Assembly: GCA_904379015.1 (NCBI GenBank)
Contig: CAJFHG010000018.1
Span: 1 to 49,265, forward strand
Direction: 5' to 3'
Origin: Candidatus Paralachnospira caecorum
Lineage (GTDB): Bacteria; Bacillota; Clostridia; Lachnospirales; Lachnospiraceae
Length of the DNA stretch: 49,265 nucleotides
Shown: one piece after another, positions 29,068 to 42,444 of the stretch
Layout of the letters: each line of letters opens with the position of its first letter
Position numbering within the stretch: the stretch's first letter is position 1
The notes under the pieces: generated by a model
Databases searched by the model: none
Told to the model about the DNA's origin: nothing
Seen by the model: the letters and a program-made list of their open reading frames with translations, nothing else
Program-made: the position numbers and the translations under genes

Positions 29068-29224
29068 CTGGCCGTGAAATCAAGTTCGTCTTACCTGAGC
29101 ACGGTTTCCGGCCTTCCATGACACAGCAAAAAAGCCCGCAATCCCTGATTCTGCAAGGATTTCCGGACTTTTTTCAGTTTCGTGAGCCACTGGGGATTCG
29201 AACCCCAGACAACTTGATTAAAAG
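29068..29224 (+). repeat. Left attachment repeat (attL)
   Basis: 157 bp shared with 32735-32891. There are four differences: 29073 (C here, T on the right), 29076 (G/A), 29123 (A/G) and 29126 (G/A); the 98 bases from 29127 to 29224 are identical. It holds the last 17 codons and stop of an integrase frame (LAVKSSSSYLSTVSGLP), a bidirectional terminator (29128-29174) and the 3' half of tRNA-Lys (29183-29224). The first two differences are silent in the integrase frame. Confidence 0.92.
29128..29174. terminator. Bidirectional terminator inside attL
   Basis: AAAAAAGCCCGCAATCC... pairs with ...GGATTTCCGGACTTTTTT (imperfect stem). In the right copy the same hairpin serves both tRNA-Lys (minus) and the integrase gene (plus). 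Confidence 0.75.
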
Positions 29225-29274
29225 GCATGTCTGCTTTCTTTCAAAAAAAAGAAAACTGAAGGACTTTTCAGCAG

Positions 29275-29375
29275 TCAAGGGCGTTAGAGGCGCCAGCCGT
29301 CCCTTGACGGCTGGAAAGCCTTTTCACAATAGGGAAGGGTGGGAACGGTTTTATCCGTTCCCGCCTTGATTATAA
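29275..29375 (+). other. Hairpin cluster, candidate rolling-circle replication origin
   Basis: Two perfect hairpins lie 26 bp apart: CCAGCCGTC/GACGGCTGG (29293-29301 with 29306-29314, loop CCTT) and GGGAACGG/CCGTTCCC (29341-29348 with 29355-29362, loop TTTTAT). The first can refold into an alternative GTCAAGGG/CCCTTGAC pairing (29276-29307). Right after the second stands CTTGATTAT (29365-29373), which resembles the CTTGATA nick site of pC194/phiX174-type origins. The region is non-coding and on the same strand as rep. The structures are seen; the origin function is inferred. Confidence 0.45.
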
Positions 29376-29419
29376 AAATAAACGTGGATTTTGTCAATTT
29401 CTCCAGTGTGCTCAAGATG

Positions 29420-29632
29420 TTACACCAACAATTTAATCGTGTCTGTCGGTTCCGATAAAGTATAGATGTATTGAAGCGCCGTCGCATCCACGCCGGAAAT
29501 TTGGAGCTGGTGCAAGGCTGTTTGTAACTGTGCCTGATCGTGCGCTTGCGCTTGATCGGGCGCTGTTGCAAATTGTCTTGTATCGCTCCAACTGCCGGGA
29601 GCGGCACGCTCGGTCTTGCTCCGTATCGGCAT
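29420..29632 (-). CDS. Doubtful small open frame in the element
   Basis: 70 codons with Gln/Ala-rich centre (APDQAQAHDQAQLQ) and a protein-like end (GVDATALQYIYTLSEP). No ribosome site precedes the ATG, and it lies just past the terminator of the repressor gene. A small hairpin TGCCG/CGGCA lies within it near 29592-29605. It may be chance. Confidence 0.25.
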   Translation of the reverse strand: MPIRSKTERAAPGSWSDTRQFATAPDQAQAHDQAQLQTALHQLQISGVDATALQYIYTLSEPTDTIKLLV

Positions 29633-29635
29633 AAG

Positions 29636-29661
29636 AAAAACCCTGCTTTATTCGGCAGGGT
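29636..29661 (-). terminator. Terminator overlapping the end of the repressor gene
   Basis: Minus strand: ACCCTGC (29661-29655) pairs with GCAGGGT (29646-29640), then TTTTTCTT. The repressor stop codon TAA lies in the loop. Confidence 0.8.
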
Positions 29662-30037
29662 CTATTGTGTCTTCAAGCGTTATCTGCTCGCCGTTCTGTA
29701 GTTTTTTAAGTATAGCTTGGCTTTGTATGGCGGCCTCGCTTAGTAGTTCCTCTCTGCTTTTTCCTGTTGCTGCTGACAGCATGTCGAACATTTCTTCAAA
29801 TTTCTGGTTCATCACCTTCACAGTTTCTTCAACCTGTTCTTTTGTGACGCGTTCCATAATGTCCCCTGGCTGACAATCTAAATAATCACAGATTTTGCTT
29901 ATCGTATCTGTCGTTACACTGTCGTTTTTTCCAAGTTTTGTTAGTGTCCCTCTTGCTATCACGCCATCTTCTACAAGGTCAAATCTTTTCTTCCCCTGTT
30001 TTTGCAATAAAATCCATAGTTTAGCGTATGAAATCAT
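29648..30037 (-). CDS. XRE/Cro-type transcriptional regulator of the element
   Basis: 129 residues. Residues 1-65 form an HTH_26-type domain (ISYAKLWILLQKQGKKRFDL, ARGTLTKLGKNDSVTTDTI as recognition region, SKICDYLDCQPGDIME). The rest is a predicted coiled-coil or helical tail (EQVEETVKVMNQKFEEMFDM), likely for dimerisation. It is divergent from the small genes and rep, with operator-like repeats between them, so it is probably the lysogeny-type repressor of replication and integration genes. AGGAGAAAAAT precedes the ATG. Confidence 0.85.
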   Translation of the reverse strand: MISYAKLWILLQKQGKKRFDLVEDGVIARGTLTKLGKNDSVTTDTISKICDYLDCQPGDIMERVTKEQVEETVKVMNQKFEEMFDMLSAATGKSREELLSEAAIQSQAILKKLQNGEQITLEDTIDPAE

Positions 30038-30074
30038 ATTTTTCTCCTATTCTCTTGACATATGCACACATTTG

Positions 30075-30167
30075 TAGTATCTTGTATTTAAGCCCATGTT
30101 TATAGTATCATTACACATATATAAGCGTTTGCACGTTTGTGTTTGTGGCTTTGATACTATCGTATCA
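30075..30167. promoter_or_regulatory. Divergent operator/promoter region of the element
   Basis: A palindrome TGATAC-TATC-GTATCA (30152-30167) overlaps a possible plus-strand promoter: -35 TTGCAC (30129-30134), 18-bp spacer, -10 GATACT (30153-30158). Two more copies of the half-site TAGTATC occur at 30075-30081 and 30103-30109. Three related sites suggest cooperative binding by the adjacent XRE protein. Confidence 0.6.
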
Positions 30168-30215
30168 GAATCGTAGTGTTTTTGCAAGGATGTACTAAAG
30201 AAAGAGGAGAATGCC

Positions 30216-30440
30216 ATGGAAGAAAGAAAATTCACCATCACTTTATCACTGACAGATCGGGAGTTCGGTGAACTTAGGAATTCTGTCTACAATCAGGCTA
30301 ATTACTATGAGAAGTCTGCTGGTTCTACAAACAACGCTCGTTTGCAGGAGATCATTTCTGAACATCTGGCTATTTGTAAGTTTTTGTATCAGGAACTGAG
30401 TGACGTGCGTATGAAAGGGGTGCTTCATGAACTGGATTAA
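30216..30440 (+). CDS. Small protein of unknown function, element gene 2
   Basis: 74 residues, start ATG after GAAAGAGGAG. It reads EERKFTITLSLTDREFGEL and then a helical part with two short amphipathic stretches. No membrane segment. The N-terminal strand followed by helices vaguely recalls ribbon-helix-helix DNA-binding proteins, without a firm match. Its end overlaps the start of the next gene by 14 bp, so both are translated together. Confidence 0.7.
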   Translation: MEERKFTITLSLTDREFGELRNSVYNQANYYEKSAGSTNNARLQEIISEHLAICKFLYQELSDVRMKGVLHELD

Positions 30441-30663
30441 AGATGATTATGCGGAGCTTATAATTACGAATCTTTCTGATTCGGATCTGGCCGACGAAGA
30501 AATGGCTTTGCATCTTGCTCTTAATGCTACGATTGAGGAATATTCCCATACCTGCTTAGTTGGTATTTTTGATGAGTTTGGGGAGTTTACCAGAGATGAG
30601 ATCATGGAGCGGTTCTGCAAGCGGTACGGTTCAAAGGTAGCGGATAACAGCAAGGAAGAATAG
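30427..30663 (+). CDS. Small acidic protein of unknown function, element gene 3
   Basis: 78 residues, start ATG with GAAAGGGG upstream. Strongly acidic (DDYAEL, SDSDLADEEM, DEFGEFTRDEIMERF). No recognised domain. It is coupled to the preceding gene and ends just before the large hairpin upstream of rep. An accessory replication or anti-host function is possible, but nothing in the sequence decides it. Confidence 0.65.
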   Translation: MNWIKDDYAELIITNLSDSDLADEEMALHLALNATIEEYSHTCLVGIFDEFGEFTRDEIMERFCKRYGSKVADNSKEE

Positions 30664-30721
30664 GCGGTAAGGTGTTGGGGGTGTTGCCCCCTTTAGGGGG
30701 CACACACACGACACCGCCGCC
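30663..30721 (+). promoter_or_regulatory. Extended hairpin upstream of rep
   Basis: Core stem TGCCCCC-TTTA-GGGGGCA (30685-30702), extended by GTG/CAC past a bulged T. Outer arms GGTGT/ACACC (30671-30675 with 30711-30715) and GGCGG/CCGCC (30663-30667 with 30717-30721) nest around it. No T-run follows. It may be an attenuator controlling Rep level or part of an origin. Confidence 0.55.
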
Positions 30722-30743
30722 TGTGGAAAGGACAGGTAAACGG

Positions 30744-31847
30744 ATGATTCTTGAATCAAAGGACTATTGTAAATACGGCTATGCTCCTGGGTCTACATAT
30801 AACCTTTCTATAAAAACATATGCTGATGGTTGTATTTCTTGCAGGACTTATAATAAACCTATCGGCGGTAGCAAGAAGACAGATCAGGCAAAGCGCCTCT
30901 CTGATCGGCTGGAAGGTGCCACGGTTTCCCGTGGATGTAGGAAGCTTAATGCGGATGGGGATTTATATGTAATTCGTGAGGATGAAGCCGTGTTACTTAG
31001 CTCATTAGATAAAAAGTATCATCTATCCAATACAGAATACGTCTGTCCTGTTGATTCATCAACGCCTTTTGGTGAGGATGCTGATTATATTATTACGAAT
31101 GATGCGGAGTTTTTCCGTGATTGTCGTACTCCTGAGCAAATAGCTGCCGATCAGGAACGCTCTGAGAGAGAATCAGTGCGCCGCGCAAAGAATACAGTTG
31201 AGGATATCGCCCGGGGCAATCTCTGGGATTTCTTTGTAACGCTTACTTTTGATGGCAAAGAGGTTGACAGATATGATTATTATGCCTGTACTCGTGCTAT
31301 TAAGCTTTGGTGTGACTGCCTTCGTCATCGTTATCCCGGTGTCCGGTATGTGCTTGTCCCTGAATTGCATAAAGATGGAGCATATCATTTTCATGGTCTG
31401 ATCGCTGGCGCTGATTTGCGTATTGTCCGTGCTCGCAGTGCAAAGACTGGCAAGCTTCTGTATACAAAACGGGGAGAACAAATTTACAATATACCGCTTG
31501 AATATAAGTATGGTCTTACGACTGTTACGAAGGTTCGTGATACTGGTGCCTCTTCTATGTATATCACGAAATATATTGGCAAGGCATTTGGTGAGGTTCC
31601 GAAAGGATGTCACCGCTATTTTGCGTCCAATAATCTTAATCGTCCTGAAGATATTACAGAGAAAGTGCTGATAGAAGACACTCCTAATATGATGCGTATG
31701 GTTGATATGCTGAGCCGTCTTGCTGATCGTGTCCGGTCTGTGTATGTTCCTGTGATTGATACAGTCGTCACTTATTTTTCTATTTTCGCTGGCAATGACT
31801 GGAAGCTCCGGGATAAGTCAGAACTTCCGGCCGTTGCCCATACTTGA
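30744..31847 (+). CDS. HUH-endonuclease rolling-circle replication initiator (Rep)
   Basis: 367 residues from the ATG at 30744; the frame is open further upstream but crosses the hairpin and has no ribosome site, while GGAAAGG lies 13 bp before this ATG. Rep motifs in order: motif 1 FFVTLTFDG (about 168), motif 2 HUH in LHKDGAYHFHGLIAG (about 210-225), motif 3 with catalytic tyrosine in SSMYITKYIGKAF (about 272). This single-tyrosine pattern fits plasmid/phage Reps and nicking at an origin on the coding strand. The C-terminal 90 residues have no helicase motif, so a host helicase must unwind DNA. Followed by the integrase gene 44 bp later. Confidence 0.88.
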   Translation: MILESKDYCKYGYAPGSTYNLSIKTYADGCISCRTYNKPIGGSKKTDQAKRLSDRLEGATVSRGCRKLNADGDLYVIREDEAVLLSSLDKKYHLSNTEYVCPVDSSTPFGEDADYIITNDAEFFRDCRTPEQIAADQERSERESVRRAKNTVEDIARGNLWDFFVTLTFDGKEVDRYDYYACTRAIKLWCDCLRHRYPGVRYVLVPELHKDGAYHFHGLIAGADLRIVRARSAKTGKLLYTKRGEQIYNIPLEYKYGLTTVTKVRDTGASSMYITKYIGKAFGEVPKGCHRYFASNNLNRPEDITEKVLIEDTPNMMRMVDMLSRLADRVRSVYVPVIDTVVTYFSIFAGNDWKLRDKSELPAVAHT

Positions 31848-31891
31848 CAAGGGCAACGTTTTCCCGAATTTTCTTCTATGAGGTGGATTTT

Positions 31892-32788
31892 ATGACTGTG
31901 ATAGAAGCTTATGAGTCATTCAATCTTAGTAAAAAGCTGGCTGGTTTAACAGATGCATCCCTGAAAGACTATTATTACTGTCTGAAAGGGTTTATTTCCT
32001 ATGCCGGCAATGATACAAATACTAGTCTTTTGGATGAAAGTCTGGTGAATGCTTATATTCTGTCTCTGCATCAGTCTGCTCTCTCCCGGTCTACGGTGGC
32101 AACATATATCCGCAATCTTCAAATCTTCCTGCGTTATATCGCTGACAACTGGGGCCTCCCCTTCTCTCCGGAGACTATAAAGGTCCCGAAAAGTCCGAAA
32201 AAGAAGCTTCGTGTCTATTCAAGTGAGGATGTGGTTCTGATTTTCAATACGTGCCAAACGTCTGTCCCGTGGATCACTGCAAGGAACCGAGCTGTGATTG
32301 CTCTGATGCTGGACTCCGGTCTCCGTCTGAAGGAAGTGGCTTCTCTCCGGCTGGAAGATATTTCTTTCACAGACAAACGGCTCAAGGTGTATGGAAAAGG
32401 GGATAAAGAGCGGTATACGCTTCTGGGTGATGTCTCTGTCCGTTATCTCCGGCAATATATTGATCTCTGTCCTTATCCGGTTTCTGGCTATGTATTTCTG
32501 TCTGATAATGGAACGCCTTTGACGAAAAGCGGCATCCAGACATTTGTAACACGGCTGGCCGATAAACTCCCGTTCCCGTTGTCCTGTCATGTCCTACGGC
32601 ATAACTTCGCAACGAATTATTGTATTATGAAGGCGGAGCATGGGGAACAGATCGATGCCTATACGCTCAAAACATTGATGGGGCATTCCAGCATATCCAC
32701 AACTGAGGGGTATATACATTGCGCCCTCGAACTACTGGCTGTAAAATCAAGTTCGTCTTACCTGAGCACGGTTTCCGGCCTTCCATGA
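31892..32788 (+). CDS. Tyrosine recombinase/integrase of the element
   Basis: 298 residues. The ATG at 31892 has GAGGTGG at ideal spacing. An N-terminal SAM-like core-binding domain (about 1-95) is followed by the catalytic domain with all active residues: Arg in LMLDSGLRLKEVASL, Lys in KVYGKGDKERY, HxxR in CHVLRHNFATNY, His in LMGHSSISTTEGY and the nucleophile Tyr in the same segment. The last 17 codons lie inside attR. It should integrate the circle into tRNA-Lys; no excisionase is recognised, although one of the small proteins could fill that role. Confidence 0.93.
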   Translation: MTVIEAYESFNLSKKLAGLTDASLKDYYYCLKGFISYAGNDTNTSLLDESLVNAYILSLHQSALSRSTVATYIRNLQIFLRYIADNWGLPFSPETIKVPKSPKKKLRVYSSEDVVLIFNTCQTSVPWITARNRAVIALMLDSGLRLKEVASLRLEDISFTDKRLKVYGKGDKERYTLLGDVSVRYLRQYIDLCPYPVSGYVFLSDNGTPLTKSGIQTFVTRLADKLPFPLSCHVLRHNFATNYCIMKAEHGEQIDAYTLKTLMGHSSISTTEGYIHCALELLAVKSSSSYLSTVSGLP

Positions 32789-32891
32789 CGCAACAAAAAA
32801 GCCCGCAATCCCTGATTCTGCAAGGATTTCCGGACTTTTTTCAGTTTCGTGAGCCACTGGGGATTCGAACCCCAGACAACTTGATTAAAAG
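32735..32891 (+). repeat. Right attachment repeat (attR)
   Basis: Copy of 29068-29224 joined to the intact tRNA-Lys. It contains the end of the integrase gene, the shared bidirectional terminator (32795-32841) and the 3' half of tRNA-Lys from the anticodon loop. The crossover probably lies inside the identical 98 bp (32794-32891). Confidence 0.92.
32795..32841. terminator. Bidirectional terminator of integrase and tRNA-Lys
   Basis: Same imperfect hairpin as in attL, with T-runs on both strands. It closes the five-tRNA operon (minus) and the element genes (plus). Confidence 0.8.
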
Positions 32892-32922
32892 TCAAGTGCT
32901 CTACCACCTGAGCTAGTGGCCC
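32850..32922 (-). tRNA. tRNA-Lys (anticodon TTT)
   Basis: 73 nt cloverleaf: acceptor GGGCCAC/GTGGCTC, anticodon stem-loop CTTGA-CTTTTAA-TCAAG, T-loop GGTTCGAATCC, discriminator A. No encoded CCA. Last gene of a five-tRNA operon and the integration target of the element; its sequence is kept intact on this side. Confidence 0.96.
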
Positions 32923-42258: not shown

Positions 42259-42444
42259 CTATCCTGCCAGATCAAGCAGAATCTTATCCACATGGGAAAT
42301 ATGATTTTTAGAGGCCAGTATTTCCTTTGCAATATGTATGTAACGCTCCGTTGTTTCAATGTTTTCATGTCCCATGATATACATAAGACTGTAGGCATCC
42401 ACTGTATTTGGAAATTTATTTGACTCTTTATTGATGCTCCTGAA
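42259..42444 (-). pseudogene. Decayed C-terminal fragment of a tyrosine integrase
   Basis: On the minus strand, 61 codons without a start end at TAG (42261-42259). The reading includes NTVDAYSLMYIMGHENIETT and ERYIHIAKEIL: the conserved GH motif and the nucleophile Tyr of phage-type integrases. The upstream Arg, Lys and HxxR parts and any start are missing. It sits 41 bp after tRNA-Arg and points toward it, as integrases of tRNA-targeting elements do, so an element once entered here. Confidence 0.75.

Follow-up and report, generated by a model that had tools for sequence, protein, structure and literature searches.

A probable capsid-less integrative rolling-circle replicon at a tRNA-Lys gene in Lachnospiraceae

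Can a unit of 3667 bp with five or six genes integrate and replicate on its own account, and how would it reach another cell? The question is raised by a locus in Candidatus Paralachnospira caecorum (GenBank assembly GCA_904379015.1, contig CAJFHG010000018.1, positions 1 to 49,265; this whole stretch of 49,265 nucleotides is referred to as the window), where an element encoding a repressor, two small proteins, an HUH-type initiator (Rep) and a tyrosine integrase (Int) lies between repeats of a tRNA-Lys gene. The original prediction took it for a self-contained integrative rolling-circle unit, and its intact open reading frames (ORFs), repeats and tRNA are consistent with that view. We conclude that the element is probably an intact, capsid-less, repressor-controlled integrative rolling-circle replicon, and that it is most likely kin to the inoviruses of Firmicutes and in need of a helper to change cells.

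Ends, genes and enzymes of the element

The element is delimited by direct repeats of 163 nt each (29068-29230 and 32735-32897), which are identical at 157 of 163 positions and spaced by exactly 3667 bp. The predicted size and tRNA-Lys flanks were thus borne out; of the predicted extent, 29068-32891, the start stands while the end falls six bases short of the last repeat position, 32897. The right repeat runs from the integrase C-terminus via a terminator-like hairpin into the 3' half of the tRNA-Lys gene, which regains its full sequence from the element-borne copy of that half. Five genes are clear and a sixth is possible, in agreement with the predicted set. The features, including the attachment (att) repeats, are as follows; z values refer to folding of the DNA.

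29068..29230, no strand: left att repeat, with tRNA-Lys 3' half, terminator-like hairpin and integrase-tail codons
29231..29647, no strand: non-coding left arm, structured at 29240-29380 (z -5.5)
29420-29632, minus: possible sixth ORF, 70 aa, without Pfam match at E<=0.05
29648-30037, minus: XRE/HTH_26 repressor, 129 aa (P0001; Pfam PF13443, 5.1e-17)
30038..30215, no strand: divergent control region, with TAGTATC boxes at 30075, 30103 and 30153 and a promoter-like site at 30055-30083, plus
30216-30440, plus: small protein, 74 aa (P0002; ORF and profile searches)
30427-30663, plus: small protein, 78 aa (P0003; ORF, of a weakly conserved set in five elements)
30662..30722, plus: strong stem-loop ahead of rep (z -4.9)
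30744-31847, plus: Rep, 367 aa, predicted HUH endonuclease of the REP_ORF2-G2P family (PF23343, 5.6e-12; phrog_3419, 1.5e-14)
31833..31857, plus: hairpin over the rep stop codon with a perfect 7-bp stem, putative nick site or origin
31892-32788, plus: tyrosine integrase, 298 aa, last codons within the att repeat (PF00589, 4e-29)
32735..32897, no strand: right att repeat (repeat comparison)
32849-32922, minus: tRNA-Lys(ttt), target gene, intact (tRNA detection)

The rep and int genes are directly adjacent. Integrase residues R145, K169, H233, R236, H265 and Y274, which we take to be the catalytic residues of a tyrosine recombinase, are invariant in five sequences; this R-K-HxxR-H-Y set, together with an att site within the 3' part of a tRNA gene, is that of a tRNA-targeting tyrosine integrase. 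In Rep, whose ORF could begin earlier, at 30672, residues H215, H217, Y273, K276 and Y277 of the HUH and YxxKY motifs are invariant in a 25-sequence alignment. An AlphaFold2 model made from this alignment had a mean predicted local distance difference test score (pLDDT) of 72.8. Foldseek searches of the model against PDB gave HUH Rep domains as top matches (wheat dwarf virus 6we0, E 0.0099), none reaching E<=0.001, and against BFVD 200 matches at E<=0.001, several of them named ORF2/G2P. Motif, catalytic tyrosine and fold are those of an HUH initiator, an activity predicted here from sequence and model. PF23343 was the sole Pfam domain found in Rep, and no helicase domain was among the matches.

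The absence of capsid, relaxase partner and cargo was likewise upheld: profile searches of the element found neither Zot nor TcpA and no recognised cargo function, and no coat genes were recognised, as judged from the ORF list only. The 74-aa and 78-aa proteins had no Pfam match at E<=1, the best matches elsewhere being E 0.044 (PHROGs) and 0.17 (NCBIfam). The HTH_26 repressor can be aligned across five of the nine elements delineated below and with a degenerate copy (genome G006), and a profile of these copies scores 115.5 bits against the inovirus Dulem virus 66. The 78-aa set spans six sequences at just 16-27% identity, for which reason a conserved fold was dropped; a profile built from five of the six matches those by construction, and none of the inovirus loci of the set reaches E 0.05 with it.

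A lineage traced through the integrase

An integrase profile searched at E<=1e-60 against 397 genomes drawn from the family matched 12 of them (13 matches, inovirus and incomplete cases counted). With G017 (twice), G025 and G113 left aside as incomplete or unclear, the inovirus G355 set apart and G002 joined to the set, nine capsid-less elements with both repeats, all at tRNA-Lys, were delineated, with repeat spacings of 2933-4206 bp (genome handles; G000 is the genome of the window):

G000, 3667 bp
G002, 3353 bp
G164, 3488 bp
G145, 3093 bp
G228, 2933 bp
G416, 4206 bp
G029, 3622 bp
G037, 3748 bp
G040, 3390 bp

TcpA was not found in any of the nine by profile search. The same integrase lineage includes a 7206-bp Zot-bearing inovirus at tRNA-Lys (G355; PF05707, 1.7e-24). 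In a class-wide sample, two of 391 genomes matched the integrase profile, both of the same family, and a separate minimal element with a dissimilar integrase occupies tRNA-Val of Yanshouia hominis BX1 (3250 bp, L205). Genome searches of the kind that the original prediction had proposed returned a same-genus element, seven further ones at tRNA-Lys and one at tRNA-Val. In IMG/VR, the window integrase as single query confirmed no relative, and an integrase alignment as query gave 12 distant ones (26-32% identity); in phage and plasmid collections only Listeria records were found at E<=1e-25, with 28.9% identity.

In nine of ten elements (the nine capsid-less ones and G355), the two att copies diverge from the tRNA-Lys anticodon (ttt or ctt); the contig of G228 ends at the anticodon point, and its tRNA-Lys was assigned from the 3' half. 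For G228 and G416, where contig ends truncate the side-by-side comparison, the repeats were delimited separately: they are 122 nt long and 96% identical in G228, and 119 nt long and exact in G416. Identity of the att copies extends 42-120 nt beyond the tRNA in seven of the ten (G000, G002, G145, G228, G416, G037 and G029), and in all seven the hairpin fold outscores those of shuffled versions (z -2.6 to -5.4), raising the possibility that the tRNA terminator may also be rebuilt upon integration. A pattern scan reported no terminators at these stretches; in G000, loops or stems lie outside the limits of the scan.

A search within the genus reached 11 genomes, and the tRNA-Lys site was described for G000, G002, G003, G005, G006, G007, G008 and G010. 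Complete elements are present in two, the window genome and Fusibacillus kribbianus YH-rum2234 (G002, Lachnospiraceae), whose element, on NZ_JASGBQ010000026.1, lies at the same tRNA and encodes a Rep 50% and an Int 60% identical to those of the window. G006 holds a degenerate copy that lacks rep and whose integrase frame is broken, and G007 an integrase tail and terminator only, beside tRNA-Lys. The sites in G005 and G010, and in G008 over the 80 bp visible, contain neither element nor integrase tail. Element-free sites, a scar and a degenerate copy are what a moving element would be expected to leave. Since the element-free sites lack the tail, while the left repeat holds tail codons, the left repeat of G000 and G002 is best explained as a leftover from an earlier occupant; a chromosomal origin of the long repeat was ruled out by the same tail-less sites. 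Two further traces were noted. A half tRNA-Lys site near a contig end in G003 (L095, G003:C41, 6706-6753) is probably the left att site (attL) of another tRNA-Lys element. In the window itself, an integrase C-terminus relic on the minus strand (42283-42400) adjoins the 3' end of tRNA-Arg(acg); it is 42% identical to the element Int over ~60 residues, has one internal stop and is probably the scar of another such element.

In the integrase tree, the nine elements and G355 fall on one side of a branch with support 100/99.6. An integrase clade that excludes G355 was neither shown nor rejected (approximately unbiased test, p-AU 0.354). A single origin of the elements with REP_ORF2-G2P-type Reps was rejected (p-AU 0.0047), and Rep type needs three changes on this tree; the profiles of the two Rep families give no cross-match at E<=1e-3. 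A larger integrase tree has 13 rows that fall outside the element clade, and 10 of these derive from loci with a Zot match (L284, with no Zot in its 3.2 kb, is excluded from this count and from the 100/99.6 tree). Sequence comparison shows a common target and a lineage united by its integrase, with a repressor family common to several members, in which Rep appears exchangeable between the REP_ORF2-G2P and Rep_trans families.

Home-made profiles were used to classify 143 Rep loci (sources include the best 80 of 162 genome loci and 45 from a viral scan; repeats of the same locus are included). Zot lies nearby in 71 of them and an FtsK/TcpA-like gene in 15, while 57 show neither, some of the latter being cut by contig ends. 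After 11 identical proteins were dropped, 132 of the 143 sequences entered the Rep tree. Nine capsid-less loci (G000, G002, G164, G228, G145, Yanshouia L205, L147, L178 and L201; the ends of the last three are not delineated, and the group overlaps the nine tRNA-Lys elements only partly) require six changes on it, at least five by starred branches. The Fusibacillus pair (support 100) is sister to 68 rows, 43 Zot-linked, 10 TcpA-linked and 15 other; support for the larger set around the pair is 93, and 88 inside it, below the starred level. A Rep of this family lies near an FtsK/TcpA-like gene in loci resembling integrative and mobilisable elements (IMEs) of Flavonifractor, Pseudoflavonifractor, Streptococcus and Schaedlerella (L199, L215, L145, L197 and others), the Schaedlerella assignment resting on a weak profile score. 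L144 (2711-7274) and L156 (2639-7600) hold 4.2-4.9-kb units between tRNA-Leu and its 20-22-nt repeat. In each, Rep is accompanied by an integrase-like ORF of 440-450 aa and by an ORF of 245 aa that resembles Mob, the names being given by inspection.

The predicted triple operator stood in part: of the four matches in the window to TAGTATC, a motif chosen post hoc, three sit in an apparent cluster of 85 bp in the region that separates the repressor from the 74-aa gene. The window total (4 against 2.57 expected by chance) is not unusual. The boxes are candidate operators by position. A perfect TTGACA-17-TATAAT of sigma-70 type on the minus strand (29397-29369) is directed at attL through the structured stretch of the left arm and is present in none of the eight other elements; promoter and structure could encode a small RNA or mark an origin for single-strand replication. 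Assignment of this arm to a known RNA family was discarded, none reaching the gathering score in Rfam (best Termite-leu, E 0.14; also below threshold, Plastid-ycf2, E 0.25, over the tRNA). The stem-loop at 30662-30722 was not seen in the F. kribbianus element. A conserved origin fold was also discarded, the two G000 stretches having z -4.9 and -5.5 against -1.0 for the F. kribbianus left arm; two G145 stretches gave +0.9 and -0.1, and a cut piece of the G000 repeat +0.3.

Proposed life cycle and candidate helpers

In the repressed state, the element would be inherited passively. Should repression fail, Rep and Int would be produced together, recombination between the repeats by Int would free a circle of 3667 bp, and Rep would nick an origin to start rolling-circle replication. 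The single strands could then be open to a helper, and Int would re-insert the DNA into a tRNA-Lys gene. The origin is perhaps the hairpin over the rep stop codon (31833-31857), hairpin loops of this kind being typical of rolling-circle nick sites. This 25-nt hairpin, GTTGCCC-11-GGGCAAC, is present in the window and F. kribbianus elements, with the loop core TACTTGAC in common and a stem that is identical though the Reps have diverged by half.

Related Reps occur in 33 records of the phage collection, and the six that were examined are all Inoviridae with annotated Zot. Zot exceeded the Pfam cut-off in 33 of the 397 family genomes, in which several long ATPase ORFs may not be phage Zot. PF05707 is also insensitive, missing G102 and G433, where another Zot profile matches beside Rep. 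Inovirus-like prophages are carried by F. kribbianus and Yanshouia, recognised by a Zot above the cut-off and, for the remaining genes, by inspection; that of F. kribbianus (L263, 6300-11384, G002:C7) combines a Zot-like ATPase with small ORFs for membrane proteins and a Rep_trans initiator. In the G000 genome no Zot was found, and it offers no resident inovirus for comparison.

Several points weigh against an intact, helper-dependent replicon. Excision, replication and transfer are themselves read from the arrangement of genes and repeats, in a genome assembled as a 55-contig draft. No excisionase was recognised, the small proteins being without Pfam match. The rep-stop hairpin overlaps coding sequence, comparable hairpins arise in 28 of 500 and 15 of 500 letter shuffles, and near the rep stops of seven other elements, Yanshouia and two inoviruses it was not found (two of 12 loci positive). 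Zot was over the cut-off in only two of the nine hosts, G002 and G416 (assuming that the 397 genomes searched for Zot are those searched for the integrase); the G029 match is below it, and neither G037 nor G040 appears among the matches. Finally, the F. kribbianus and Yanshouia elements have nothing in common with the inoviruses of their own genomes that is longer than chance. A common packaging sequence was dropped as a line of evidence, the longest exact match being 13-15 nt in three pairs and 13-14 nt in two cross controls.

As to the helper, we favour a filamentous phage over a conjugative type IV secretion system (T4SS). The element would then be a filamentous-phage satellite like TLC-phi and RS1, its single strands packaged and exported by a co-resident inovirus that supplies Zot and coat proteins. 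We hold this tentatively, at somewhat short of even chances. The element combines replication with a lack of morphogenesis genes, as a satellite does; relatives of Rep, of Int and of the repressor occur in inoviruses, the integrase clade includes the Zot-bearing inovirus G355, and F. kribbianus itself hosts an inovirus-like prophage. This must be set against the lack of a packaging-like sequence in common with resident inoviruses, the seven of nine hosts without Zot over the cut-off of an insensitive profile, and the fact that no anti-repressor or other helper-directed gene was recognised. A bolder version, which we regard as doubtful, is that Lachnospiraceae harbour a lineage of dedicated filamentous-phage satellites with their own tRNA-Lys anticodon integrase and repressor, which have discarded the morphogenesis genes and exchange unrelated Reps. 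If true, such a lineage would reverse the pattern of inoviruses, in which the coat module is retained while Reps are swapped.

Rather unlikely, in our judgement, is a TcpA-less IME whose Rep doubles as relaxase and which is moved by a Tn916/ICEBs1-type T4SS. The element does have an integration/excision module with delineated ends, excision being predicted, as a non-canonical IME would. Its layout resembles that of compact streptococcal IMEs with rolling-circle initiators as relaxases, 35 of 118 of which are without a coupling protein (PMC5704250; PMC5357655). Rep relatives also adjoin FtsK/TcpA-like genes in Streptococcus, Flavonifractor and others, and TcpA-linked Reps make up 10 of 70 rows in the set with the Fusibacillus pair and 4 of 19 in that with G164, G145 and G228. 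However, a 13-row clade devoid of elements takes in 10 of the 14 TcpA-linked Reps, and none of the nine elements has TcpA. TpcC, which marks a T4SS of this type, was absent from 14 genomes including five of the nine hosts (G000, G002, G164, G145 and G228; G416, G029, G037 and G040 lay outside the search), a weak point, since a helper need not be resident.

An ordinary small integrative plasmid that relies on transformation or generalised transduction for its spread, and on no dedicated helper, is unlikely. Distant Reps (~30% identity) do occur on staphylococcal plasmids of about 1.4 kb, and capsid-less integrative plasmids are known (PMC6668415), but the retained repressor and the spread of the integrase (12 of 397 genomes) would suggest efficient transfer.

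A deletion remnant of an inovirus prophage is highly improbable. In its favour, integrase lineage and target are shared by an inovirus (G355), and the genus holds a scar and a degenerate copy. Yet nine hosts, with two Rep families between them, have the same compact size and layout in which rep and int are both intact, and repeated retention of both att sites and two intact enzymes is not expected. The complete second element in F. kribbianus and seven more compact elements make a remnant unlikely, and homologous Rep and Int units at tRNA genes argue against a one-off deletion, one of the outcomes by which the original prediction could have failed.

Comparison with known systems

Surveys of IMEs take relaxases, coupling proteins and integrases as their entry points. 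The large inovirus survey is seeded with pI/Zot (Roux 2019, PMC6813254). An element that has no Zot and no recognised relaxase is therefore easily overlooked. Seen through its integrase, the present lineage comprises nine capsid-less elements of 2.9-4.2 kb with one target, one full inovirus and two Rep families, and offers a testable case of interconversion among filamentous phages, satellites and integrative plasmids; its members could also be turned into site-specific vectors of very small size for use in Lachnospiraceae. Searches of open-access literature listed no account of tRNA-Lys integrase elements in this size range, which does not establish that none exists.

The original prediction that known IMEs usually carry more was overstated. 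Published studies describe streptococcal IMEs with a compact order of rolling-circle initiator, excisionase and integrase (PMC5704250; PMC5357655), IME_Class_3 (Rel_PHA00330) with two of 21 elements lacking TcpA (Coluzzi 2017, PMC5357655), and IME integrases (Tyr_8) some of which target tRNA genes including tRNA-Lys (PMC5357655). They also describe capsid-less integrative plasmids, pCRESS and others (Kazlauskas 2019, PMC6668415), the filamentous-phage satellite TLC-phi, with a replication module and no morphogenesis genes (PMC4246890), and Rep swapping among inoviruses (among PMC6813254, PMC6668415, PMC4246890 and PMC11389934).

Compared by layout, the window element is like the streptococcal IMEs in its compact pairing of a rolling-circle initiator with a tyrosine integrase, but it is without TcpA or a recognised excisionase and resides in another host family. 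It shares with TLC-phi replication without morphogenesis genes, whereas it differs from TLC-phi and RS1 in having its own tyrosine integrase at a tRNA gene instead of Xer/dif, in its Gram-positive host and in a packaging that is only hypothesised. Firmicutes-type inoviruses (bajarodino and Dulem viruses; Roux 2019) have the same Rep family, with rep adjoining int in some loci, and Dulem virus 66 has a repressor of the same profile; the element, in contrast, has neither Zot nor recognisable coat genes, is about half their size and falls outside Inoviridae. Like pCRESS-type integrative plasmids it combines site-specific integration, an HUH Rep and no capsid genes, but no helicase domain was recognised in its Rep, unlike the HUH-helicase fusion of pCRESS plasmids. 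Since IMEs with rolling-circle initiators, capsid-less integrative plasmids and the TLC-phi/RS1 satellites are already known, the element lineage is a variant added to the known capsid-less integrative rolling-circle replicons.

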